In this document: positions 10,981-24,183 of the stretch, piece after piece
How positions within the stretch are numbered: position 1 is the stretch's first letter
Layout of the letters: the number at the start of each line of letters is the position of its first letter
NCBI GenBank assembly: GCA_020351855.1
Contig: CP070670.1
Span: forward strand, 244,375-277,506
Direction: 5' to 3'
Origin: Gemmatimonadota bacterium
Lineage (GTDB): Bacteria; Gemmatimonadota; Gemmatimonadetes; Palauibacterales; Palauibacteraceae
DNA length: 33,132 bases
Position numbers and translations under genes: made by a program
Notes under the pieces: model-generated
Database searches by the model: none
Told to the model about the DNA's origin: nothing
The model's input: the letters and a program-made list of their open reading frames with translations, nothing else

Positions 10981-12093
10981 TCAGACGTGTGACCGGTGCA
11001 GCCGCGCGACCTGCTCGACGCGTCGCATCGCGAGCCGATCCGCCGCTTCCGCGCTCGTGATCCCCTCCTCCTCCGCCAACTCGAAGATCCGCAGCAGCAC
11101 GCCGTAGATCTCGCCCGCCTTCCGCTTGGACCGATCCAGCGTCCAGCCGACGAGCTCCGAGTACACATTGATCAGGCCGCCCGCGTTGATCACGTAGTCA
11201 GGAGCGTACAGCATCCCGCGCTCCCGCAGCCGGTCATCGTCCTCCTCCGTCTCTAGTTGGTTGTTCGCGGCGCCCGCGATGACGTCCACCCGCAGCTTCG
11301 GGATCGTCCGGCTGTTCAGGACGGCACCCAGCGCGCACGGGGCGAAGATGTCGGCATCGACCTCATAGATCTCCTCGGGATCGACCACCTCGGCGCCAAG
11401 CTCATCGGCTGCCCGATCCACCCGCGTCTGATCGATGTCCGTCACGATCAGCTTCGCACCCTCCTCGACCAGGTTGCGTGCCAGATAGTAGCCCACGTGC
11501 CCCATGCCCTGAATCGCCACGGTCTTGCGCCCCAGGTCATCGTCGCCGTAGCGCTTGAGGGCGCAGGCCTTCATGCCGCGGTACGTGCCGAAGGCGGTCA
11601 CCGGCGATGGGTCGCCGGACCGTCCGAGGATGCCGACGACGTACTCGGTCTCGGTGTGCACGTAGTCCATGTCCTCAACCGTGGTGCCGACGTCCTCGGC
11701 CGTGATGTAGCGTCCACCCAGGCTCTCCACGACGCGGCCGTGGGCCCGCATGATCATCTCGCGGTAATGCGTCTTGTTGTCCCCAATAATCACGGCCTTG
11801 CCGCCCCCGAGATTCAGGCCCGCGATCGCCGCCTTGAAGGTCATGCCGCGGGAGAGCCGGAGAACGTCGATCAGGGCATCCATGTCCGTCGCGTAATCCC
11901 AGAACCGCGTGCCGCCGAGGGCCGGGCCGAGGGTCGTATCGTGAATCGCGACGATCCCTCTGTAGCCGCAGGAGGGCTCGTAGCTGAAGACGACTTGCTC
12001 GTGGCCGTGCTCGGCGAACATGTCGAACAGCTGCGGCTTGTCGAAGCCCGCAACCTCGACGAACTCGTCGATCCGAACGTCCGTATGACTCAC
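10981..12093 (-). CDS. Leu/Val/Phe-type amino acid dehydrogenase
   Basis: Members of this family oxidatively deaminate branched-chain or aromatic amino acids to 2-oxo acids using NAD. The 370-residue protein carries the ELFV signature region: ALGGTRFWDY (59-68), then SRGMTFKAAIAGLNLGGGKA with Lys87 and Lys99 at the expected substrate and catalytic positions, a Rossmann GMGHVG (196-201), and APCALGAVLN and IAGAANNQL blocks. Length and motifs fit leucine dehydrogenase best; valine or phenylalanine use cannot be excluded. Its ATG overlaps the acyl-CoA dehydrogenase stop as ATGA, so the two are translationally coupled, consistent with a role in feeding branched-chain acyl-CoA breakdown. Confidence 0.92.
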   Translation of the reverse strand: MSHTDVRIDEFVEVAGFDKPQLFDMFAEHGHEQVVFSYEPSCGYRGIVAIHDTTLGPALGGTRFWDYATDMDALIDVLRLSRGMTFKAAIAGLNLGGGKAVIIGDNKTHYREMIMRAHGRVVESLGGRYITAEDVGTTVEDMDYVHTETEYVVGILGRSGDPSPVTAFGTYRGMKACALKRYGDDDLGRKTVAIQGMGHVGYYLARNLVEEGAKLIVTDIDQTRVDRAADELGAEVVDPEEIYEVDADIFAPCALGAVLNSRTIPKLRVDVIAGAANNQLETEEDDDRLRERGMLYAPDYVINAGGLINVYSELVGWTLDRSKRKAGEIYGVLLRIFELAEEEGITSAEAADRLAMRRVEQVARLHRSHV

Positions 12094-13277
12094 TGGGCTC
12101 TATCCCTTTCTCGGTGAAGCTGCCCCGCGATGATCCAGCGGTGGATCTCGCTCGTGCCCTCGTAAATCTCCGTGATCTTAGAGTCGCGGAACAGGCGTTC
12201 CACCGGATACTCGCGGCTGTAGCCGTAGCCGCCGAACACCTGGACGGCCTGCCGGGCGATCCACACGGCCGCCTCGCTCGCCACGAGCTTGGCGGTGGAG
12301 GACAGGCGCCGGCTTCGCGGATCCCCCATCGAGTAGGCCCGTCCCGCCCGCTCCAACGTGGCGAGCGCCGATTCATAGCGCTGCGCCATGTCCGCCAGCT
12401 TGAATGCCATCCCCTGGAAAGACCCGATCCTGGCGCCGAACTGGCTTCTCTCCTCACTGTAGTCGAGGGCGTGCTCCAGGGCGGCCTTCGCGATCCCGAC
12501 GGCCTGGGCCGCGATCCCCAGGCGGCCGCCCTCCAGGGCGGCCAGCGCATAGCGAAAGCCGCTGTCGGGCTCCCCGATCAGGTGTTCGGGCCCCAACCGC
12601 ATCCCTTCCAGCGCCACCTCCACGGTCTCCGAGCCTCGCAGGCCCATCTTCCTTTCTTTCTTGCTCGGCCGATAGCCCGGCGTGTCCGTCGGTACGATGA
12701 AGGCTCCGATCCCACTCGTTCCACGGCGATCATCGGGGGTGTCGGTGCGGGCGAACAGCAGAACGAGATCGGCCGAGGCGCCGTTCGTCACCCACGTCTT
12801 GGCGCCCTCCAGGATCCAGTGCTCCCCTTCACGCGTCGCCTGGGAGGTCAGGCTGGCCGCGTCGCTGCCCGAGCCCGCCTCCGAGAGCGAGAAGGCCCCC
12901 AGGAGCTCGCCGCGGGCCATCGGCTTGAGCCAGCGCTCCTTCTGCTCCTCCGTGCCATGGCGCAGGAGGATCTGGGTCGGAAGCGAGTTGTGCACGCTCA
13001 TCGACACGGATACGGATGGGTCTCCCCAAGAGATCTCGACGAGCGAATAGAGGTACGTCAGCATGTCCAGGCCCAGACCGTCGTACTCCTCCGGCACCAG
13101 CATGCCGAGGAAGCCGAGCTGACCGAGCTTGTCCACCGCTGCCCGGTCGAAGCGGTCCTCCTCTTCGTCCCGCCGCGCGGCCAGCGGTCTGAGCTCCGAC
13201 TCGGCAAATGACCGGGCGAGCTCGCAGATCTGCCGCTGCTCCTCGGTGAGGTCGATTCCGAGCGTCGCCTGTAACAT
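12090..13277 (-). CDS. Acyl-CoA dehydrogenase
   Basis: This FAD enzyme makes the alpha-beta double bond in acyl-CoA thioesters and passes electrons to ETF. The 395 residues match the family's typical length. They show an N-terminal helical domain (LTEEQRQICELARSFAE), a middle beta domain with FSLSEAGSGSDAASL and TWVTNGASADL, and a C-terminal helical domain with RSQFGARIGSFQGMAFKLADM, VQVFGGYGYSREYPVER and EIYEGTSEI, where Glu373 aligns with the catalytic base of short-chain enzymes. ATG 13277 is chosen because it lies just past the Hbd stop; longer in-frame starts would run into hbd. Short-chain, butyryl or isovaleryl substrates are all possible. Confidence 0.93.
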   Translation of the reverse strand: MLQATLGIDLTEEQRQICELARSFAESELRPLAARRDEEEDRFDRAAVDKLGQLGFLGMLVPEEYDGLGLDMLTYLYSLVEISWGDPSVSVSMSVHNSLPTQILLRHGTEEQKERWLKPMARGELLGAFSLSEAGSGSDAASLTSQATREGEHWILEGAKTWVTNGASADLVLLFARTDTPDDRRGTSGIGAFIVPTDTPGYRPSKKERKMGLRGSETVEVALEGMRLGPEHLIGEPDSGFRYALAALEGGRLGIAAQAVGIAKAALEHALDYSEERSQFGARIGSFQGMAFKLADMAQRYESALATLERAGRAYSMGDPRSRRLSSTAKLVASEAAVWIARQAVQVFGGYGYSREYPVERLFRDSKITEIYEGTSEIHRWIIAGQLHRERDRAQ

Positions 13278-13285
13278 TTCGGGCG

Positions 13286-14155
13286 TCAGCCCTCTGCGTA
13301 CGAGTAGAAACCGCGGCCGCTCTTGCGGCCCAGGCGTCCGGCGGCCACGTACTTCTTCAGCAGCGGACATGGGCGGTACTTGTCGTCGCCAAGGTCACGC
13401 TGGAGCACCTCGCAGATCAAGAGGCAGGTGTCCAGGCCCACCAGGTCGGCAAGGGCCAGCGGCCCCATCGGGTGGTTCATGCCCAGTTTCATGACCGTGT
13501 CGATCGCCTCCGCTTCCGCCACGCCCTCCATCAGACAGTAGACGGCCTCGTTGACCATCGGCATGAGAATGCGGTTCGACACGAAGCCCGGGAAGTCGTT
13601 CACCTCCACGGGCGTCTTCCCCAGCCGCTCGCACAGGGCGACGGTGCGGCTGGTCGTCGCATCGCTCGTCTCGAGCCCCCGGATAACCTCCACGAGCTGC
13701 ATGACCGGCACCGGATTCATGAAGTGCATTCCGATCACGCGCTCCGGCGCGCTCCCGGAGGAAGCGATCTCGGTGATCGAGATGGAGCTCGTGTTGCTGG
13801 CCAGGATGGCCTCAGGCGAACACACGTCGGCAAGCCGCCTGAACATGTCGTGCTTGAGCTCTGCGCGCTCCGGCACCGCCTCGACGACCACTTGCGCGTC
13901 CGCCAGCTCGGCCAGGTCGGTGGAGACCCTTATCCGGGCCAGCGCGTCCTCCGCCTCGCTCGCCGCGATCTTCTCCTTCTTGACCTGGCGCCCCAGATTC
14001 CGCTCGATCGTGGCGATGGCGCCGCTGAGCGCCGCTTCGTCCACATCCACCAGAACGACGTCGATCCCCGCTGTCGCGAAGACGTGGGCGATCCCGTTGC
14101 CCATCGTGCCGGCGCCCACGACGCCCGCTCTGCTCGTGCTCTCTTCCCCGGACAC
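13286..14155 (-). CDS. hbd: 3-hydroxyacyl-CoA (3-hydroxybutyryl-CoA) dehydrogenase
   Basis: Hbd interconverts 3-hydroxyacyl-CoA and 3-oxoacyl-CoA with NAD(P). The 289-residue stand-alone form shows the N-terminal Rossmann motif [10 protein letters not shown] (14-23), [10 protein letters not shown], the catalytic-histidine motif [12 protein letters not shown], and a C-terminal helical domain with [16 protein letters not shown] and [16 protein letters not shown]. It starts with GTG, with GGAG seven bases upstream. Three bases separate it from the CPBP gene, and eight from the acyl-CoA dehydrogenase. With thiolase and acyl-CoA dehydrogenase in the same run it supplies the redox step of beta-oxidation or of butyrate-type synthesis; direction cannot be told from sequence. 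Confidence 0.95.
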
Positions 14156-14158
14156 GTC

Positions 14159-15193
14159 TCAGCTCCTCTCGTTGATCGCCCGGCCCGAGCCGGGCGCCCG
14201 AATCTCCCCTTCGCTCCTCGCGCCTCCAACCATCGGCTCCCGTCCTTCCGGCCGATCGCCCGACCCTGACACAGCTCGGGCACGTCGCCGCACGGCCGGC
14301 GGCCGCAACGCGAGCACCCGCAGGGAGGGTCTGAGCCTCCCGGTCGCCATCACCCAGACCAGTCCCGCCAGGGTCACCCCGGTGACGATCCACCCGCCCT
14401 CGGGTCCGAACGCCCCGCCGGTGAGCGAGCCGCGGCCCGTTACGATCGCGTCGAAGCCCGGGGTGTCCAGAGCGAAGCCCGGTACCGATCCGTCCAGACC
14501 GCTCACCGGCAGGTCGGCCCCGACGCCCATCGCCCAGTTCCAGCCGAAGTGGATGCCGGTGACGAACCAGAGGTTCATGGTGCGCCAGAACGCCGCCCCC
14601 AAAAGCAATCCCGCTAGCCCGATGTTCAGCAGACCGCGTCCGGAAACATGCGGGTTGAGCGCATGGAGGGCGGCGAAGACGACAGCCATGAGAACGACGG
14701 CGGCCATCCCTCCGGCCACTTCCGCGACCAGCTGAAAGGGGTAACCCCTCAGCAGCAGTTCCTCGGTCAGCGCGGCAGCCGCCAGGAAGGCGCTCAGCTC
14801 GAGCAGCACACCGATCGCCCTCCAGGCGCCGGTCGGCGTGGCCTTCCAGGCGAGGGCCCCGATCGCCACCATCACGAGCACGGCTCCCGCGATCAGCAGG
14901 ACGCCCACCAGCGTCCCCCTGGCCATGGCGCCGGGGACGAGACGGTCCACCGGAAGGCCCAGCGCGGCCAGAGGCCTGCCCTCGAGGCGCTCCATGAGCA
15001 GCCAGCTGGCCGCGAGCGCTGCGGCGAGTGGCATGAGGATCGTCCAGCGCTCCGGCCACATCCCCGTGGCCCAGGGCGCGTTGAGCCACGTGGCCAGCTG
15101 GCCCAACACGAACAGGAAGGCCAGGAAGGCGAGGATGAACAGCCCGAGCCGCCAGCCAGCACGGACCCGCCCCGCCGACCCTCGCAGGATCAC
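14159..15193 (-). CDS. CPBP-family intramembrane metalloprotease
   Basis: This 344-residue polytopic membrane protein belongs to the CPBP (Rce1/Abi) family of glutamate-type intramembrane proteases. About eight hydrophobic segments are visible. The catalytic motifs are present: EELLLRG (Glu144, Glu145, Arg149), FAALHALN (His177) and HFGWN (His215). The C-terminal roughly 40 residues are polar and probably cytoplasmic. GTG 15193 is chosen because GGGGAG lies seven bases upstream; earlier in-frame starts would overlap bioY. Target and physiological role are unknown; bacterial members include bacteriocin-immunity and membrane-protein maturation factors. Its position inside an acyl-CoA gene run gives no clear hint. 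Confidence 0.9.
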   Translation of the reverse strand: MILRGSAGRVRAGWRLGLFILAFLAFLFVLGQLATWLNAPWATGMWPERWTILMPLAAALAASWLLMERLEGRPLAALGLPVDRLVPGAMARGTLVGVLLIAGAVLVMVAIGALAWKATPTGAWRAIGVLLELSAFLAAAALTEELLLRGYPFQLVAEVAGGMAAVVLMAVVFAALHALNPHVSGRGLLNIGLAGLLLGAAFWRTMNLWFVTGIHFGWNWAMGVGADLPVSGLDGSVPGFALDTPGFDAIVTGRGSLTGGAFGPEGGWIVTGVTLAGLVWVMATGRLRPSLRVLALRPPAVRRRARAVSGSGDRPEGREPMVGGARSEGEIRAPGSGRAINERS

Positions 15194-15221
15194 GGAGGCA
15201 CTCCCCGAATCGTCCCTCCCG

Positions 15222-15794
15222 CTAGCGGAGTGCCCGGCGGAGTGGGCCTCGCAGACGGCTGCCCACGAGGACGACCAGCGCAAGCTTGAGCACGTCGCCG
15301 GGCAGGAAGGGCATCAGGCCGCTCGCCGCCGGCATCCCCATCCCCAAGACGTACAGCCAGGACAGGCCCGCGAGGTGGATGAACGCCAGTCCGAGCAATG
15401 CCCCGGCCGTCATCGCAGCCGCACGCGACGAGCGCACGGTCGCCGCGCCCGCGATGGCCGCGGCGACCGGAAACGCCAGTAGATACCCTCCCGTGGGTCC
15501 GAGCAGGTACGCAGCACCGCCTCCCGCGGCAAACACCGGAAGTCCGGCCATTCCCGCCGCCAGGTACGCCAGCTGGCTGTACGCCCCGAGCCGCGGCCCC
15601 AAACAGATCCCCGCGAGGAGTACCCCGAAGACCTGCAGGGTGAAGGGAACGGCGATGCCGGGCAGGGGAACGGCAAGCCGCGCCCCGCCAGCCGTCAACG
15701 CCGCAAAAAGCAGGACCGCCAGGATCCTCGCCAAGCTACGTCGACTTTCCAGGCCTTGATCCCTCGATGTAGTTGTCGAATCAGCTGTTATCAT
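15222..15794 (-). CDS. bioY: Biotin ECF transporter S component BioY
   Basis: BioY binds biotin in the membrane and imports it, alone or with the EcfA/A'/T energising module (not encoded here). The 190-residue protein has about six hydrophobic segments and the conserved features VPFTLQVFGVLLAG, LGPRLGAYSQLAYL, GLPVFAAGGG and GPTGGYLLAFP. ATG 15794 gives the family's usual length and lies eight bases after the thiolase stop; there is no Shine-Dalgarno, and the start codon sits inside a perfect palindrome. Biotin import would support acetyl-CoA or propionyl-CoA carboxylases connected with the acyl-CoA genes around it. Confidence 0.92.
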   Translation of the reverse strand: MITADSTTTSRDQGLESRRSLARILAVLLFAALTAGGARLAVPLPGIAVPFTLQVFGVLLAGICLGPRLGAYSQLAYLAAGMAGLPVFAAGGGAAYLLGPTGGYLLAFPVAAAIAGAATVRSSRAAAMTAGALLGLAFIHLAGLSWLYVLGMGMPAASGLMPFLPGDVLKLALVVLVGSRLRGPLRRALR

Positions 15795-15802
15795 CGATGA
15801 TA
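15789..15802. promoter_or_regulatory. Perfect 14-bp palindrome over the bioY start, possible operator
   Basis: TATCATCGATGATA reads the same on both strands and contains the bioY ATG (15794-15792). Two further symmetric base pairs flank it beyond one mismatched position. It begins right after the thiolase stop and stands out as AT-rich. It resembles the symmetric operators of GntR-type regulators but does not match the BirA operator I know; a BioR-like site is only loosely similar. Confidence 0.35.
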
Positions 15803-17011
15803 TCACACGAGTTCGATGCTCATCGCCACCGCGTTTCCGCCCCCCAGGCACAGCGTCGCCAGGCCCTTCCCGGCACCGCGATCCCGCATCGCGTGCACGA
15901 GCGTCGTCAGGATGCGGGCCCCGGAGGCCCCGATCGGATGCCCAAGCGCGACTGCCCCGCCCCGCACGTTCACGCGCTCCCAGTCGACGCCCAACTCACG
16001 TCCGTCGGCAAGGACCTGGACCGCGAACGCCTCGTTCATCTCGACGAGATCATAGTCCGCCACCGTCGTGCCCTCGGACTCCATGAGCTTCCGTACGGCA
16101 ACGACCGGGGCGAAGAACAGGTCTCGAGGAGCCGTCGCGCCCACCGAATATGCCGAGATCCGCGCGAGGATGTCCAGACCGTTCGCTTCGGCAAACGCCT
16201 CGGACGTGATCACCGTCGCCGCCGCCCCGTCGTTCAGTCCGGGGGCGTTGCCCGCCGTGACCGTGAGCTCCTGCACCTCCGGTGGAGCATCGGCTCCGAA
16301 GGCCGGCCGAAGCTTGCCCAGCGCCTGCAGAGAAGTGTCGCGGCGCGGCGGCTCGTCCGTGTCCACGATGTTGGGGCCCTTGCGGCCCGGCACCTCCACG
16401 GGAACGATCTCGGCCGCGAAGGCGCCCTCGTCGATCGCCTGGATGGCCTTCGTGTGGCTTTGCACCGCGAACTCGTCCTGCTCCTCGCGAGTGATGTGAG
16501 CTTTCATGGCCGTATACTCCGCGTACCCGCCCATGTGACACTCCCCGAACGAACACCAGAGCCCGTCGTTGATCAGCCCATCGATCACCTGGCGATCTCC
16601 GAACTTCACGCCCTCCCGGTAGCCCCTCACGAGGTACGGGGCGTTCGACATCGATTCCATCCCTCCCGCCACGATCACCTGATTGTCCCCCGCACGTATC
16701 GCCTGGGCTGCAAGCATCGCTGCCTTCAACCCGGACCCGCACACCTTGTTGATCGTCACGGCCGGAACGGTCTCCGGAATGCCGCCGAGAAGGGCCGCCT
16801 GCCTGGCCGGGGCCTGGCCGACCCCTGCCTGCACGACATTCCCCATGATCACGTCCTGGATCGCCTCCGCGGGAACGCCCGACCGCTCGACCGCGGCCGC
16901 GATCGCCTTCCCGCCGAGTTGCGGCGCCGTTAGCGGCGCGAGCCCTCCCAGGAACCGGCCCGTCGGCAAGCGGGCCGCGCTGACGATCACCGCGCTTCGC
17001 TCTTTATCCAT
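15803..17011 (-). CDS. Acetyl-CoA acetyltransferase (thiolase)
   Basis: Thiolase either condenses two acetyl-CoA to acetoacetyl-CoA or cleaves 3-oxoacyl-CoA. The 402 residues show the nucleophile motif NKVCGSGLKA (Cys91), AGGMESMSNAPY, the substrate-loop region with HMGGYAEYTA, NEAFAVQ, GGAVALGHPIGASGARI with the catalytic His, and the second cysteine in CLGGGNA. Length and motifs fit the biosynthetic PhaA/AtoB-like type. ATG 17011 is preferred, with GGTGA just upstream; a GTG three codons earlier is possible. It lies 64 bases after the MBL-fold gene and eight before bioY. Confidence 0.95.
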   Translation of the reverse strand: MDKERSAVIVSAARLPTGRFLGGLAPLTAPQLGGKAIAAAVERSGVPAEAIQDVIMGNVVQAGVGQAPARQAALLGGIPETVPAVTINKVCGSGLKAAMLAAQAIRAGDNQVIVAGGMESMSNAPYLVRGYREGVKFGDRQVIDGLINDGLWCSFGECHMGGYAEYTAMKAHITREEQDEFAVQSHTKAIQAIDEGAFAAEIVPVEVPGRKGPNIVDTDEPPRRDTSLQALGKLRPAFGADAPPEVQELTVTAGNAPGLNDGAAATVITSEAFAEANGLDILARISAYSVGATAPRDLFFAPVVAVRKLMESEGTTVADYDLVEMNEAFAVQVLADGRELGVDWERVNVRGGAVALGHPIGASGARILTTLVHAMRDRGAGKGLATLCLGGGNAVAMSIELV

Positions 17012-17075
17012 GGTTCTCACCGTCCTTCACATGGAATGCTGTACTTCCTCCGATTCCTGCGACCCGGCTCGCGGA

Positions 17076-17954
17076 TCACCCCGTCGACTCCCCGTCACGA
17101 CGTACCTCCATCAGCTCGCAGCCGCCGCGAGCGGCGGGGCGAGCGACGCCCGTCGCGATCAATGGGTCGTGACATAGCACGATTCTCCAGCCCTCGGTCC
17201 CGGCTCGCGAAAGCCATGTACGCTTGCTCTCGAGCGTGACCAGCGGCTCGACGTCGTATCCCATCATCCACGGAAGCGGCAGGTGGGCGTGGGTGGGCGC
17301 GAGGTCCGCTGGATAGAAGACTGTCAGCTCGCCCGCCCGCACGATCACCGACTGGTGGTGGGGTGTGTGGCCTGGCGTCCGGACGACCTGGATCCCGGGA
17401 GCCACCTCCCGGTCCTCGTCTACGAAATCGACCATGCCCGCCGCGGCCAGCGGCTCGAAGTTCCCGGTCCGGTAGCTGGCCCGCACCCGCTCGTTCGTCT
17501 GGTGAGCGAAATCCCATTCACCGCGTCGGATCACGTACCGCGCCCGGCTGAAGGCGGGCACGATCGCACCGTCTGGCTCCCGCCGGGTCGCGCCACCCGC
17601 ATGATCGAAGTGAAGGTGCGTGCAGACTACGGTGTCCACGCTCTCCGGGTCGACCCCGGCGGCTCGGAGCGAGTCCTCCAGCCGGCTCGGCTGCCCCTCG
17701 TTCTCGACCCCGTAGATCTCTCGGAACTTCTCATCCTCCTTGTGACCCAGACCCGTATCCACGAGCACCACGCGTTCATCGGACTCGATGAGCAGGCAGC
17801 GCATCGCAAGCTCGATCCGGTTGCGCTCATCCGGCTGGATGCGGGCACTCCAAAGGGGCTTCGGCACGACGCCGAACATCGCCCCTCCGTCCAGCCGCAG
17901 CCTTCCGGCATCGACCGTGCGCACACGCAGGCCGCCCGACTCGCACACGATCAT
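17076..17954 (-). CDS. MBL-fold metallo-hydrolase (lactonase-like)
   Basis: A 292-residue metallo-beta-lactamase-fold hydrolase, probably binding two metal ions. The ligands are visible: HLHFDHAGG (His113, His115, Asp117, His118), TPGHTPHH (His196), YPADLAPTHAH (Asp217) and LCHDP (His262). The long N-terminal strand region and the spacing resemble AHL-lactonase-like members, but the same layout occurs in many uncharacterised esterases and thioesterases. ATG 17954 is chosen because GGAGG precedes it and it overlaps the exonuclease stop as ATGA. Sitting between rex and thiolase, a thioester or lactone substrate is a guess only. Confidence 0.85.
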   Translation of the reverse strand: MIVCESGGLRVRTVDAGRLRLDGGAMFGVVPKPLWSARIQPDERNRIELAMRCLLIESDERVVLVDTGLGHKEDEKFREIYGVENEGQPSRLEDSLRAAGVDPESVDTVVCTHLHFDHAGGATRREPDGAIVPAFSRARYVIRRGEWDFAHQTNERVRASYRTGNFEPLAAAGMVDFVDEDREVAPGIQVVRTPGHTPHHQSVIVRAGELTVFYPADLAPTHAHLPLPWMMGYDVEPLVTLESKRTWLSRAGTEGWRIVLCHDPLIATGVARPAARGGCELMEVRRDGESTG

Positions 17955-18805
17955 TCGACCCTCCGGCGGCGCCGTCCCCGCCCGGTGGAGAGCCAGCCCT
18001 GCAGCTGGCCCCAGTGCTCGATGCTCCTGCGCTCGGCCTCCTCGAGGAGACGCATCAAGACGAGGGCGGTCGCACGGGCGTCCCCCCACGCCCTGTGACG
18101 CCCCTCGATCTCGATCCCGTAGAAGCCGGCCAGCGAATCCAGTCCACGGCGCCGCAGCCCGGGGAGCGCCTTTCGGGCCAGCCGCACCGTGCACAGCCGC
18201 GCTCCACTAGGGATGACGCGACGAGCCCGCTCCATCTCGGCGCTGACATACGCCCAGTCGTAGGCAGCATTATGGGCCACGAACACGCGCCCCTGAAGCC
18301 GCTCCCGCAGATCGTCGCACACGTCCCCGAAGGTCGGTGCCCCGGCGACCATCTCCCGCGAGATGCCGGTGAGCCCGGACACCCACCGCGGCACGGGCCG
18401 CTCCGGGTTGATGAGGGTCGTGAACTCGTCGCGGATCACCCCACTCCTCACCTCTACGACGGCGATCTCGATAATCCGGCCGCCTCGCGAGACCGGAATG
18501 CCCGTCGTCTCGACATCGACGACGACGAACGGCAGGGAATCCAGCCGCCGGTCGTTCCTACCCGGACGCTCCGACAGCCGCCACATCCCATCCCCATCGA
18601 CCTGCACGCGTTCATCGTCGGCCAGCAGCTCGAAGACGAGGCGGGCCGCCAACCCCGGGGGGGCACTCTGCAGACCGAGCACTTGCCCCGCGATGCGCGA
18701 CGTATGCTGGGGCTCCTCCTCGATCATGCTCAGCGCGCGGGACAGGAGCGAAGAGCTGTCGGAAAACCGCAGTCCAGGTGGGGTCACGCCGCGCTGCTCA
18801 GCCAC
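17951..18805 (-). CDS. DnaQ-like DEDDh 3'-5' exonuclease with an added N-terminal domain
   Basis: The 284-residue protein carries a DnaQ/RNase T-type exonuclease domain (about 90-255) with ExoI VDVETTG (Asp97, Glu99), ExoII VAHNAAYDW (Asp183) and ExoIII HRAWGDA (His237, Asp242), all catalytic residues intact. The first 85 residues look like a small winged-helix module (SRIAGQVLGLQSAPPGLAARLVFELL then VQVDGDGMWRL), as found in some stand-alone epsilon-like exonucleases. It is too divergent to call the replicative epsilon subunit with confidence. The GTG start overlaps the rex stop by eight bases, and its stop overlaps the MBL gene. Confidence 0.88.
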   Translation of the reverse strand: MAEQRGVTPPGLRFSDSSSLLSRALSMIEEEPQHTSRIAGQVLGLQSAPPGLAARLVFELLADDERVQVDGDGMWRLSERPGRNDRRLDSLPFVVVDVETTGIPVSRGGRIIEIAVVEVRSGVIRDEFTTLINPERPVPRWVSGLTGISREMVAGAPTFGDVCDDLRERLQGRVFVAHNAAYDWAYVSAEMERARRVIPSGARLCTVRLARKALPGLRRRGLDSLAGFYGIEIEGRHRAWGDARATALVLMRLLEEAERRSIEHWGQLQGWLSTGRGRRRRRVE

Positions 18806-19439
18806 CCGCCCGCTCCCCCGCCTGGCATGGGGTCAGGGCGAAGGTCAGTGCCTCGAGCTCGAGCGCCAGGTCCATCGTGCGCACGACGACGGCATCCTCC
18901 GGGTCGACCTCGATCGGGGCGAAGTTGAGGATCGCCAGGACGCCCGCGTCCGCGAGCTTTTGGACGACGGGTCGCGCCGCTTCCGGTGGGGTCGCGACGA
19001 TCGCGATCTCCACCGCGCGCTCCCGGATCACGCGCTCGAGCGCCTCGATGCCGCACACCTCGAGGTCACCCCGCTTCGCACCCACCTTGCGCGCGTCCGC
19101 ATCGAAGGCCGCGACCACGTCGAAGCCGCGCCGAGCGAGTTCCCGATAACCGAGCAGCGCCGAGCCCAGCTTGCCTACGCCTACGACGGCCACCTTCCAG
19201 CGGCGCTCAACTCCCAGGATGCGCTGGAGGCTCGCCATCAACTCGGCCACGTCGTAGCCCCTGCCCCGCTGGCCGAAGGAGCCGAACAGGCTCAGGTCCT
19301 TCCGCACCTGGGCCGCGGTGGTTCCGCTTCTCTCCGCGAGCTCTTGGCTGGAGACCAGTTCGCGGTTGCCGTCGACCTCGCGGAGCAGGCGCAGGTAGAG
19401 GGACAGGCGGCGAACGGTCGATTCGGAGATCCTTTTCAC
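18798..19439 (-). CDS. rex: Redox-sensing transcriptional repressor Rex
   Basis: Rex is a dimeric repressor that leaves DNA when the NADH/NAD+ ratio rises. The 213 residues comprise an N-terminal winged helix (ISESTVRRLSLYLRLL, then SQELAERSGTTAAQVRKDLS with FGSFGQRGRGYDV, about 1-70), a Rossmann domain with GVGKLGSAL (87-95) and acidic Asp113 that favours NADH, the VATPP loop (148-152) and a C-terminal swapped helix (about 190-202). It starts with GTG. The 36-base gap to rsmA contains a Rex operator and a promoter start region, so autoregulation is very likely. It heads an 11-gene run including acyl-CoA genes. Confidence 0.97.
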   Translation of the reverse strand: MKRISESTVRRLSLYLRLLREVDGNRELVSSQELAERSGTTAAQVRKDLSLFGSFGQRGRGYDVAELMASLQRILGVERRWKVAVVGVGKLGSALLGYRELARRGFDVVAAFDADARKVGAKRGDLEVCGIEALERVIRERAVEIAIVATPPEAARPVVQKLADAGVLAILNFAPIEVDPEDAVVVRTMDLALELEALTFALTPCQAGERAGG

Positions 19440-19450
19440 GCTCCCCGGCT

Positions 19451-19472
19451 GCTTGTGAAAACCTTCACAAGC
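19451..19472. promoter_or_regulatory. Rex operator
   Basis: A 22-base inverted repeat has perfect 9-bp arms: GC plus TTGTGAA, a 4-base centre AACC, then TTCACAA plus GC. The known Rex consensus is TTGTGAA-N4-TTCACAA, matched exactly. It lies 11 bases upstream of the rex start and directly after the candidate -10 box, where bound Rex would block transcription initiation. Confidence 0.92.
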
Positions 19473-19501
19473 AAGTTACGGGCGCCGCTTACCCTTCTCA
19501 A
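19473..19501 (-). promoter_or_regulatory. Promoter of rex, within the end of rsmA
   Basis: On the minus strand TTGAGA (19501-19496), 17 bases and TAACTT (19478-19473) form a sigma-70-like promoter. The -35 box and spacer lie in the last codons of rsmA. The expected transcription start falls inside the Rex operator. This gives rex and downstream genes a promoter separate from the prmA-to-rsmA operon. Confidence 0.6.
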
Positions 19502-20330
19502 CTCGATCCATCAGGGCCCTGGCCAGGGCCCGGAACTGCTCTGGGGACAGCGTTTCCGGCCTGTCCCGCGGATCGAACGCGATGGCTCGGGCCAGCGCGG
19601 CGCATTCGTCCGGGGGAAGGAGATACTCGGGCGCGCGGCGCAGGATCTTTTGCAACTGCTTGCGCCGTTGACCGAACGCCACGCGTGTGAGTCGACGCAG
19701 CTCCGCCTCCTCTTCCGGGCACAACGGATCGGCGAGCGGATCGAGCACGACGACGGCAGAGTCGACCGTGGGCACCGGGCGAAAGGCCTTGCGGCCAACC
19801 TGAAAGGCGATCCGGGCGGCACGCCTCACCTGAACGCCGACGCTCAACGCCCCGTAGGTCTTCGATCCGGGACCGGCCACGAGCCGCTCGGCCACTTCGC
19901 GCTGGATCGTCACCACGATCCGCAGGGCGGGAGGGTGCATGCCGAGGATGCGAAACAGGAGGGGGGAGGTGATCGAGTACGGCAGATTCGAAAGCACTCT
20001 GTAGCGACGCTCGCGCTGCACGAGGCCTGACAGGTCCAGTTCCAACGCGTCGCCATGCACCACTTCGACGCCGGCTGCGTCGCCGAACTCGGCCCGGAGC
20101 GAGCCGGCGAGGTCGTCGTCCTTTTCCACCAGGACGAGTCGAGCGACCCGGCCGACCAGACGCCCGCCAAGCTCTCCGTGTCCGGCTCCGATCTCGATCA
20201 CGCACTCGGAAGCCGACGGGTCGAGCGCTTCGAGGATCTTCCGCTGGAGGTTCGGGTCGACGAGAAAATTCTGGCTGAGTGACCGCTTCGCTCGGCCTTG
20301 ATCCGGCGAAGCCGCCGCACCGTCTCTCAT
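19476..20330 (-). CDS. rsmA: 16S rRNA m6(2)A1518/A1519 dimethyltransferase RsmA (KsgA)
   Basis: RsmA dimethylates two adjacent adenines in the 3' terminal hairpin of 16S rRNA, late in 30S assembly. The 284 residues show QNFLVDPNL near the N-terminus, the SAM motif VIEIGAGHGELG, acidic LVEKDD, the catalytic SNLPYSI motif, IQREVAERL and a C-terminal helical domain with FRPVPTVDSAVV and RRKQLQKIL. Length is normal. It starts with ATG 16 bases after pta. The rex promoter -35 box lies within its last codons. Confidence 0.97.
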   Translation of the reverse strand: MRDGAAASPDQGRAKRSLSQNFLVDPNLQRKILEALDPSASECVIEIGAGHGELGGRLVGRVARLVLVEKDDDLAGSLRAEFGDAAGVEVVHGDALELDLSGLVQRERRYRVLSNLPYSITSPLLFRILGMHPPALRIVVTIQREVAERLVAGPGSKTYGALSVGVQVRRAARIAFQVGRKAFRPVPTVDSAVVVLDPLADPLCPEEEAELRRLTRVAFGQRRKQLQKILRRAPEYLLPPDECAALARAIAFDPRDRPETLSPEQFRALARALMDRVEKGKRRP

Positions 20331-20346
20331 CGAGTGGGCCGTGATC

Positions 20347-21323
<977 letters not shown>

Positions 21324-21327
<4 letters not shown>

Positions 21328-21836
21328 CCGCCCGCCTCTTTCGCAGGCACGCGCCTCTTGATCGCTTCGAGGACGATGGGGTGCACGAAGGCCGACACAT
21401 CGCCGTTCAGCCGCGCCACCTCTCGCACGAGGGAGGAGCTGAGAAACGTGTAGCGATTCGCCGGCGTCATGAAGATGACCTCGATGTCGGGCGAGAGGGA
21501 CCGGTTCATGAGCGCCATCTGGAACTCGTACTCGAAGTCGCTCACCGCCCTCAGGCCGCGAATGATGATCGACGCGTCTGCTGCTCGCGCGAAGTCGACG
21601 AGCAGCCCCCGGAAGGACGCGATGGTCACCCGGGGCTCATCCCGATAGACGTCTTCCAGCAATTCGATGCGCTCGTCCAGGTCGAACAGCGCCCTCTTCT
21701 CCTGTGTGGCCGTTTCCGCCACCGCTACGATCACCCGATCCACCAGCCGGAGGCTCCGCAGGACGATGTCGTGGTGGCCCAGGGTGATCGGGTCGAAAGA
21801 ACCGGGATACACGGCGGCTCGCGCTGATCTGCTCAC
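21324..21836 (-). CDS. coaD: Phosphopantetheine adenylyltransferase CoaD
   Basis: CoaD adenylates 4'-phosphopantetheine, the penultimate step of coenzyme A synthesis. The 170 residues show YPGSFDPITLGHHDI, with the nucleotidyltransferase TxGH motif, RGLRAVSDFEYEFQMALMN and TFLSSSLVREVA for ATP binding. The length is typical (about 160). It starts with GTG overlapping the rsmD stop (GTGA) and ends in a GTGA overlap with pta. The rsmD-coaD pairing is common in many bacterial phyla. Confidence 0.97.
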
Positions 21837-22393
21837 GGATGTTCGTCCCTTTCGTCGTCGGGCCTTCCGGCTTCCAGGAAGGTCAGCTCCGTATCTCCGT
21901 ACCGCCGCGACCAGATCGCGTCCGGTACCGCGCTCAAGGCGCCCGGCTCATGCTCCAGGCACAGCAGGCCCGCAAAGGGCCGCTCTCGAAAGCAGGTCGC
22001 CAGGCGTACGGCCAGGCCCTCGCGATACGGCGGGTCGGCAAGGACGACGTCCCAGCCGCGGCCCCCCGCGCCATCCAAGGTGGCGAACACATCAGCCCGC
22101 AACACGCGACTTCGCTCCACGAGCCCGAGGGCCTGCAAATTCCTGCGGAGGGCCTCCGCGAGCGGCCGATCCGCCTCGACGAAATCGACCCGGGCCGCCC
22201 CGCGCGACAGCGCTTCGATTCCCAGGACACCGGAACCGGCGAACAGATCCGCCACGGCCGCGGCATGGATTCTGACGCCGAGGGCGCTGAACCAGGCCTC
22301 CCGCACCCGGCCGCTCGTCGCGCGAAGGCCGGGCCGCCTCGGGACCTCGATCACACGGCCGCCCAGCTCCCCGGCCACGACCCGGAGTCTCAC
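21833..22393 (-). CDS. rsmD: 16S rRNA m2G966 methyltransferase RsmD
   Basis: RsmD methylates G966 in helix 31 of 16S rRNA. The 186 residues carry the SAM-binding DLFAGSGVLGIEALSRGA, acidic FVEADR, and the catalytic DPPY motif in VVLADPPYREGL, plus the N-terminal RVVAGELGGRVIEVP and RATSGRVREAWFSALG typical of the family. It starts with GTG overlapping the recJ stop (GTGA) and ends overlapping coaD. Confidence 0.95.
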   Translation of the reverse strand: MRLRVVAGELGGRVIEVPRRPGLRATSGRVREAWFSALGVRIHAAAVADLFAGSGVLGIEALSRGAARVDFVEADRPLAEALRRNLQALGLVERSRVLRADVFATLDGAGGRGWDVVLADPPYREGLAVRLATCFRERPFAGLLCLEHEPGALSAVPDAIWSRRYGDTELTFLEAGRPDDERDEHP

Positions 22394-24183
22394 GCCCGCC
22401 GGGCGTCGAGCAGCCGGGCCTGGAGGCGCCGCCTCCCCCGCCAGTGGTCCTCCAGCGGCTCGAACACGACGTCCCAGACGCCCTGCCGGAGCTCCTCTGC
22501 CCGCTGGCCCATTCCGAATCCTATGGTCGGGAGACGGACGTCGCCTCGGCCGACCAGCTCGGCCCGCACGTGGGAACCGTCCTGTCCGACCCGGAGGGGA
22601 CCATCGAAGCGGACACCCCGAGTGAGCAGGATGGGCCGCCGGTTTCGGTATCCGAAAGGCTCGAGGTACTTCATCCAGCGGCCGATCGTGCCGACGGCGT
22701 CTTCCAGCGTGACCTCGAGATCGATCTCGAGATCGATCTGCGGTTGGCCCGCCGCGCGCGGATCGTCTTCAGCATGGCGGCCGAGCCGCTGCCCGGCTCG
22801 CCGTGCGACCTCCCGCACGAAAAGCTGCCGAAACTCTTCGACCCGCTCCCGACGCACGTCGAGTCCCGCTGCCTCCCGATGACCACCGTGGCGCTCCAAG
22901 AGCGGCGCGCATTCGTCCAGGACTTGGATGAGGTTCACCCCCCCTGCCGATCGGGCCGACCCCCGTCCGAGATCCCCATCGAACGCGATCACCACGGCAG
23001 GCGTGCCGGTGCGCGCTGCCAGCTTGGAGGCCACGATCCCGATCACCCCGGGGTGCCAGTCATCGCTCCAGAGCACCACAGCCGGTCCGGGAGGGGCCTC
23101 ATCGAGCCGCGCCTCCGCCTCCTCGGTCACTTGCCGATCTGTCGCGCGACGCCGCCTGTTGTGATCCTCCAGTCTCGAGGCCAGCGCATCGGCTTCCGCG
23201 GCGTCCTCCGTGAGCAGCAGCCGAAGGCCCTCTTCGGCCGCGCCGACTCGGCCCGCGGCGTTGAGGCGCGGCGCCAGGCGGAATGCCACATCGTCCGCAG
23301 CGACACGCCCACCGAAGGGTGCCACCCGCGCCGCGAGGAGCAGGGACCAGAGACCGCGATTCTGCGTCCGGGCCAGCGCCCGCAGCCCGGCGCGCACCAG
23401 AGCCCGGTTCTCGTCCACCAGCGGCCCGCGGTCTGCGATCGTCCCGATGGCCACGAGATCGAGGTGGCGGTTCAGCATGCCCTCGGGCCGACCGGCGCTC
23501 CGACTCAGCGCAGTGAGAAGCTTGAAGGCGACCCCGGCGCCCGTCAGGCCACGGAACGGGTATCCGCTGTCGGCTCGGTGCGGATTCACCACGGCGATCG
23601 CGGCCGGAAGCTCCACGTCGGGCCGGTGATGGTCCGTGACGATCACGTCGCGCGCGGCGGCGCGCGCAGCGGCGATGGCTGCATGAGCCGTCGTGCCGCA
23701 GTCCACCGTGACGATCAGTCGGGCGCCCAGCTCATCGGCGCGCCGGAGTCCTGCAGGGCCCAGGTCGTAGCCGTCACGCAGCCGGTGCGGCACGAACGCC
23801 TCTACCCGCCCACCGAGCTCTTCCAGCCCGCGCGCGAGCAGCGCCGCGCCCGTCATCCCGTCCACGTCATAGTCGCCATGCACGAGTATGGGCTCGCCAG
23901 AGGCGATGGCCTTCTCGATTCGCGACACCGCGGCAGCCAGATCGGGGAGGAGGCTGGCGGCTGGCAAACCGTCGAGTCGCGGCCGCAGGAACCCCCGCGC
24001 TGCCTCCGGGTCGTGGCAACCGCGTCGGACAAGCAGCTGACAGAAGAGCGCGGGGAGCCCCAGGGATTCCCGGAGAGCCCGCACGGCGCCCTCCTCGATC
24101 GATGTGGGTTCGACCCAGCGGCAGCCGGGGCGGACAGCCCCTGTCACCTCGTGCTCATTCGACGGGATAGAGAATGATGCCAC
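22390..24183 (-). CDS. recJ: Single-strand-specific 5'-3' exonuclease RecJ
   Basis: RecJ degrades single-stranded DNA in recombination, mismatch and base-excision repair. The 597 residues contain the DHH-family motifs HGDYDVDGM (102-110), VTVDCG (158-163), VTDHHRPD (182-189, DHH motif) and a later NPHRADSGYPF, the DHHA1 domain with GRGSARSAGGVNL, and a C-terminal OB-like part. The stated GTG start overlaps the coiled-coil zinc-ribbon gene by 29 bases; GTG 24147 is an alternative without overlap. A 12-bp micro-repeat lies near the 3' end. It belongs to the run from prmA to rsmA. Confidence 0.96.
   Translation of the reverse strand: MASFSIPSNEHEVTGAVRPGCRWVEPTSIEEGAVRALRESLGLPALFCQLLVRRGCHDPEAARGFLRPRLDGLPAASLLPDLAAAVSRIEKAIASGEPILVHGDYDVDGMTGAALLARGLEELGGRVEAFVPHRLRDGYDLGPAGLRRADELGARLIVTVDCGTTAHAAIAAARAAARDVIVTDHHRPDVELPAAIAVVNPHRADSGYPFRGLTGAGVAFKLLTALSRSAGRPEGMLNRHLDLVAIGTIADRGPLVDENRALVRAGLRALARTQNRGLWSLLLAARVAPFGGRVAADDVAFRLAPRLNAAGRVGAAEEGLRLLLTEDAAEADALASRLEDHNRRRRATDRQVTEEAEARLDEAPPGPAVVLWSDDWHPGVIGIVASKLAARTGTPAVVIAFDGDLGRGSARSAGGVNLIQVLDECAPLLERHGGHREAAGLDVRRERVEEFRQLFVREVARRAGQRLGRHAEDDPRAAGQPQIDLEIDLEVTLEDAVGTIGRWMKYLEPFGYRNRRPILLTRGVRFDGPLRVGQDGSHVRAELVGRGDVRLPTIGFGMGQRAEELRQGVWDVVFEPLEDHWRGRRRLQARLLDARRA
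22714..22737. repeat. Two tandem 12-bp copies inside recJ
   Basis: CTCGAGATCGAT occurs twice in perfect tandem and is rich in overlapping palindromes. It lies in frame in recJ and encodes the duplicated residues IDLE-IDLE in a beta strand of the C-terminal region. A replication-slippage duplication is the simplest reading. Confidence 0.8.

Follow-up and report, generated by a model that had tools for sequence, protein, structure and literature searches.

Rex regulons were reportedly compared on a large scale in a study from 2012. In S. avermitilis, the rex, nuo, and atp operons are direct targets of Rex, and repression is released by NADH, as described in the available part of PMC5355995. In S. 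aureus, according to the available portion of PMC2883068, binding by Rex is strengthened by NAD+ and weakened by NADH. S. agalactiae Rex, a dimer with wHTH and Rossmann domains, binds TTGTGAAN4TTCACAA in its own promoter region (PMC8376106, available in part).

The locus considered here lies in a 33,132-nucleotide stretch of Gemmatimonadota DNA, referred to below as the window, and carries a Rex-type palindrome upstream of rex. The palindrome has the same motif as that of S. avermitilis Rex (TTGTGAANNNNTTCACAA), with rex, nuo, and atp, the direct targets there, as the predicted targets here. In contrast to S. avermitilis, where rex is the first gene of a heme operon (rex-hemAC1DB) and Rex also acts on cyd, rex here comes after rsmA and before an exonuclease gene, and no cyd site is found among the three other sites with 2 mismatches (compare with the same part of PMC5355995). 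The palindrome is likewise similar to the 18-bp S. aureus consensus TTGTGAAW4TTCACAA; however, the S. aureus targets described in that portion of PMC2883068 are anaerobic and fermentative genes, whereas the recognizable targets here are rex, nuo, and atp. A TTGTGAAN4TTCACAA operator at the promoter region of rex itself and a Rex with wHTH and Rossmann domains are the features shared with S. agalactiae, whose rex neighborhood and Rex regulon, as far as given in PMC8376106, differ from those seen here. The Rex autoregulation circuit is already known; the new part is its setting in the Gemmatimonadota, a phylum that has received little study. A literature search returned no report of a Rex regulon in Gemmatimonadota, and a word search of two Gemmatimonadota genome papers (PMC9426454 and PMC10581226) found no mention of Rex.

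The rex gene and the palindrome upstream of it

On the minus strand of the window, a pta-like phosphotransacetylase gene (20347..21327; Pfam PTA_PTB, E 4.3e-83, under the NCBIfam pta cut-offs) is followed by rsmA (ksgA; 19476..20330), which encodes the 16S rRNA dimethyltransferase (TIGR00755, 236 bits against a cut-off of 171), then by a 36-nt gap, rex (18798..19439, including the stop codon), and a gene for a DEDD/DnaQ-type 3'-5' exonuclease (17951..18805; Pfam RNase_T, E 3.7e-32). With an 8-nt overlap between the end of rex and the start of the exonuclease gene, the two genes probably share a transcript. This order is largely retained in relatives: rsmA precedes rex in 27 and the exonuclease gene follows it in 25 of the 30 loci examined, some of which represent the same place twice. 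Below rex, still on the minus strand, positions 12090-17020 of the window encode an acetyl-CoA acetyltransferase, BioY, a CAAX-protease-like protein, a 3-hydroxybutyryl-CoA dehydrogenase, and an acyl-CoA dehydrogenase.

The product of rex, an NADH/NAD+-sensing repressor of 213 aa read from a GTG start, scores 233.5 bits against NCBIfam NF003993 (cut-off 217), and its best matches among solved structures are Rex chains (5zz5, 3wg9, and 1xcb; best E 5.9e-44). It has the architecture of the Rex family, with a Put_DNA-bind_N domain at residues 4-50 and a CoA_binding (Rossmann) domain at residues 80-175. When aligned with T. aquaticus Rex (1xcb), both the recognition stretch AQVRKDLS (Arg46-Lys47) and the GxGxxG nucleotide loop (VVGVGKLGSAL) are intact; in S. 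agalactiae Rex, two adjacent basic residues make the base contacts, as described in the available part of PMC8376106. Most homologues among named relatives come from metagenome assemblies of Gemmatimonadota, and an uncultured Gemmatimonadales bacterium has the closest Rex (72% identical).

The sequence-only reading had claimed an exact Rex consensus with GC extensions at the rsmA-rex junction, and this was borne out: TTGTGAA-AACC-TTCACAA occupies 19453-19470 as an exact, strandless match to the operator core TTGTGAA-N4-TTCACAA, and with GC on each side the palindrome spans 19451-19472. The core ends 13 nt upstream of the rex GTG start. Within the window, there is no other match at up to 3 mismatches (shuffled sequence averages 0.10), and the exact operator is unique in the 2.96-Mb genome (a single contig, ∼90% complete), where base composition predicts 3.4e-4 exact copies and, for the window, 3.8e-6. 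At up to 3 mismatches, the genome holds 12 places compared with 2 for a reversed control pattern. A chance palindrome was ruled out by the window shuffles, the genome counts, and the base-composition expectation.

We also compared the region upstream of rex among relatives, which share ancestry, so that the rex loci are not independent. A site at up to 3 mismatches was present in all 30 rex loci of the first set (L018-L047, which include that of the window), at a distance of 9-51 nt upstream of the estimated rex start. In the larger set (L018-L064), 46 of 47 loci gave a usable site, and 22 were left once rows at least 90% alike had been removed; over these, the TTGTG and CACAA positions are conserved in 21 or 22 loci and the N4 loop is variable. 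No site at up to 3 mismatches was found in the 130 nt examined, with the start only estimated, at L059 and at 16 of 17 more distant loci (L065-L081, from Chloroflexota, Planctomycetota, Verrucomicrobia, and others). Taken with its exact match, this conservation before rex makes it highly probable that 19453-19470 is the autoregulatory operator of rex.

The predicted promoter in the end of rsmA

Upstream of the operator, a -35 box TTGAGA (19496..19501, minus strand) lies in the last rsmA codons and is separated by a 17-nt spacer from a -10 box TAACTT (19473..19478, minus strand), which reads TATCTT or TATGTT in most relatives. The end of rsmA thus contains the -35 box and the spacer, and its TAA stop codon (19478-19476) forms the first three bases of the -10 box. 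Two nucleotides (GC) separate the -10 box from the operator core, an ROP arrangement, in which operator and promoter pattern adjoin, that is recovered in the comparison of loci. From the -10 spacing, transcription is predicted to start at 19464..19467 on the minus strand, within the first operator half-site.

The pattern TTGA-NN-N17-TAnnTT, ending 1-4 nt before the operator, was found in 17 of the 22 non-redundant rex loci, always with a spacer of 17 under a search that permitted 16-18, compared with 14 of 3284 control windows (46 nt, both strands, same loci, junction included). The promoter claimed by the sequence-only reading, with its -35 box in the end of rsmA, is thereby confirmed by comparison. 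The five loci in which the pattern is missing are L025, L026, L028, L041, and L046, and L041 carries TTGACC-N18-TATAAT in its place. A consensus promoter scanner run over 17000-22500 reported no promoter because TAACTT, a weak -10 box, agrees with TATAAT in just 3 positions out of 6, and the case for a rex promoter is a comparative one. For 8 of the 17 loci, the rsmA stop codon, as placed by a rough rule, is a TGA within the -35 box; the window has its TAA within the -10 box, and the remaining loci have the stop outside both. Because the promoter DNA is conserved while the end of the RsmA protein shifts, a promoter is favored over a by-product of coding. The junction is an example of comparison confirming a promoter concealed within the 3' end of a coding gene.

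We posit that the promoter at the end of rsmA would start an mRNA within the operator. When NAD+ is dominant, a Rex dimer occupying 19453-19470 would overlie the start site as well as the -10 edge, and initiation would be blocked; upon a rise in NADH, Rex would leave the operator, and rex would be transcribed together with the overlapping exonuclease gene. Autorepression of this kind, at an internal rex promoter repressed by Rex, is very likely judging by the comparison of loci. Binding, release by NADH, and the start site are drawn by analogy from Rex family biology as presented in the available parts of PMC8063818 and the reports cited above; repression and the extent of the transcript are predictions.

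The earlier proposal went further, holding that rex and the genes downstream escape the control of the upstream operon and are repressed by Rex. The comparison supports the Rex-repressed internal promoter, but the escape is not supported. A terminator scan found no terminator-like site on the minus strand over 17000-22500, hence none between rsmA and rex, and therefore read-through into rex is possible; a promoter inside the operon gives polymerase a further place to start without halting what arrives from upstream. Rex at 19453-19470 could also hinder polymerase arriving from rsmA. Taken to its end, this would mean that the operator is real but most rex mRNA is pta-rsmA read-through, with Rex serving chiefly as a roadblock and only a minor part left to the internal promoter. 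The lack of a terminator on the minus strand, the 36-nt gap, the conserved rsmA-rex order, and the weak -10 box are in keeping with such an arrangement; however, a pure roadblock would not need promoter elements, which keep one constant spacing across 17 of the 22 loci, and we consider it unlikely.

The palindrome is also an inverted repeat in RNA. Read on the minus strand, it is predicted to give an 11-bp stem of -19.6 kcal/mol (z -2.6), with 3 of 200 shuffles equally stable. One speculative scheme, to which we attach little probability, assigns the palindrome a dual function: as DNA it would serve the internal promoter as Rex operator and obstruct read-through from pta-rsmA, and as RNA it would form a hairpin in read-through transcripts that lowers Rex synthesis, with Rex across Gemmatimonadota tying complex I and ATP synthase to NADH and one genus having expanded its regulon to ∼14-30 sites. 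The hairpin would be confined to read-through transcripts, since an mRNA from the internal start begins within the 5' arm. If this were true, the hairpin would stand just before the rex start, and NADH would set both the amount of Rex and the message from which it is made. As the main function, a hairpin that terminates transcription or directs RNA processing at the rsmA-rex junction is very improbable despite its stable fold and was ruled out by the terminator scan, the half-site conservation, and the fold results: the hairpin has no U run after the stem and so lacks the form of an intrinsic terminator, it was not flagged by the scan, both half-sites are nearly invariant over the 22 loci and the loop is variable (the stem of a terminator would change through compensating substitutions), and similar sites precede nuoA and atp.

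Co-occurrence of the site with rex across genomes

If the palindrome is read by Rex, its presence should follow that of rex. We detected rex in 85 of 100 related genomes, and a site at up to 1 mismatch occurred in 81 of the 85 compared with 2 of the 15 genomes in which rex was not detected (Fisher p 3e-11, a value that ignores kinship). The rex-bearing genomes without such a site are G006, G012, G018, and G037; G037 has a Rex of just 36% identity, and sites at 2-3 mismatches occur in G012 and G018. Conversely, G032 and G094 carry a site at up to 1 mismatch yet no detected rex, and G003, in which rex was not found (82% complete), retains a nuoA site at 2 mismatches. The count scores G001 as rex-bearing, though just a rex fragment remains there.

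In that genome (L135), rex residues 1-33 are joined directly to residues 194-211. In G094 (L151, 2464), an exact operator is followed by approximately nine rex-like codons and then by unrelated sequence. The two loci are possible rex relics or assembly errors.

The co-occurrence also bears on the alternative that the palindrome is the site of a Crp/Fnr-type regulator rather than of Rex. The palindrome contains TGTGA-N6-TCACA, which we take to have the spacing of a Crp site. Further, the Crp/Fnr-type regulator ArcR of S. aureus binds upstream of some Rex-regulated genes, as stated in the available portion of PMC2883068. However, the source genome (∼90% complete) has no HTH_Crp_2 or Crp match at E 0.001, neither rex nor the site is present in G035, G038, G040, and G041, all four of which match HTH_Crp_2 strongly, the sites track rex across genomes, and the outer T and A flanking the Crp core are conserved in 22 of 22 loci. 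The lack of a regulator match, the siteless genomes with an HTH_Crp_2 match and without rex, and the co-occurrence of site and rex ruled out a Crp/Fnr site, to which we give hardly any credence.

Further sites and the predicted regulon

A scan of the whole genome for further Rex sites, as the sequence-only reading had suggested, was productive: three others were found at 2 mismatches, of which one is upstream of nuoA and another upstream of the atp genes. The first lies 27 nt upstream of nuoA, and a promoter-like pair recognized by eye, TTGACG-N18-TATTAT, ends 10 nt before it. The second lies 85 nt upstream of atpZ-atpI-atpB; its left half TTGCGA can double as the -35 box of TTGCGA-N17-TATGAT (again by eye), which would explain the unusual C in the site. 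NuoA and AtpB are both under the NCBIfam cut-offs, with NuoA models as the best matches of NuoA and likewise AtpB models for AtpB, and AtpZ was identified by Pfam ATPase_gene1. The nuoA site recurs in 14 relatives (9 among the loci picked and 5 of the same genus), 15-27 nt from the start, and five genomes (G002, G007, G008, G019, and G025) likewise have the atp site. The 20 non-rex site loci picked among the matches listed comprise 9 at nuoA, 4 at atp, and 7 at neither.

The third site at 2 mismatches (L003) has no evident redox target and lies ∼140 nt before a frame that we presume to resemble a TldD/PmbA protease. The sites at 3 mismatches in this genome are mostly inside long open frames, and some of them are chance matches, because the reversed control also gives 2; one (L016) lies ∼60 nt before a frame that is presumably aldehyde-dehydrogenase-like.

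On the basis of these sites, nuo (complex I) and the atp operon of the source genome are probably under the control of this Rex as well, which yields a firm, testable predicted Rex regulon (rex, nuo, and atp) for Gemmatimonadota. The recurrence of the sites suggests that NADH control of complex I and ATP synthase, shown in Streptomyces, extends to Gemmatimonadota.

In genus g17 of the same class, all eight genomes have 14-30 sites at up to 1 mismatch, compared with 0-7 in the other rex-bearing genomes of the class. Two of them, G046 and G073, have 30 sites each and none for the reversed control; the loci taken from them were L136-L150 and L154-L167 (G046) and L168-L182 and L194-L208 (G073), and 14 of 29 site loci of G046 have extensive homologous flanks in a site locus of G073. 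Frames near the g17 sites include rex, nuoA, a CO-dehydrogenase-type FAD subunit, an ABC-2 permease, PyrF, and an intein-bearing ThyX. From these counts, genus g17 looks to have a strongly enlarged Rex regulon.

At three of the G046 loci (L149, L158, and L161; site at 1501), the downstream frame begins at a GTG within the operator, and therefore the operator encodes the N terminus V-K/N-x-F-T. In genus g5 (L112 and L117), a one-mismatch Rex-type site precedes an ArsR-type regulator, and at L112 a molybdopterin oxidoreductase related to PhsA also lies downstream of the site.
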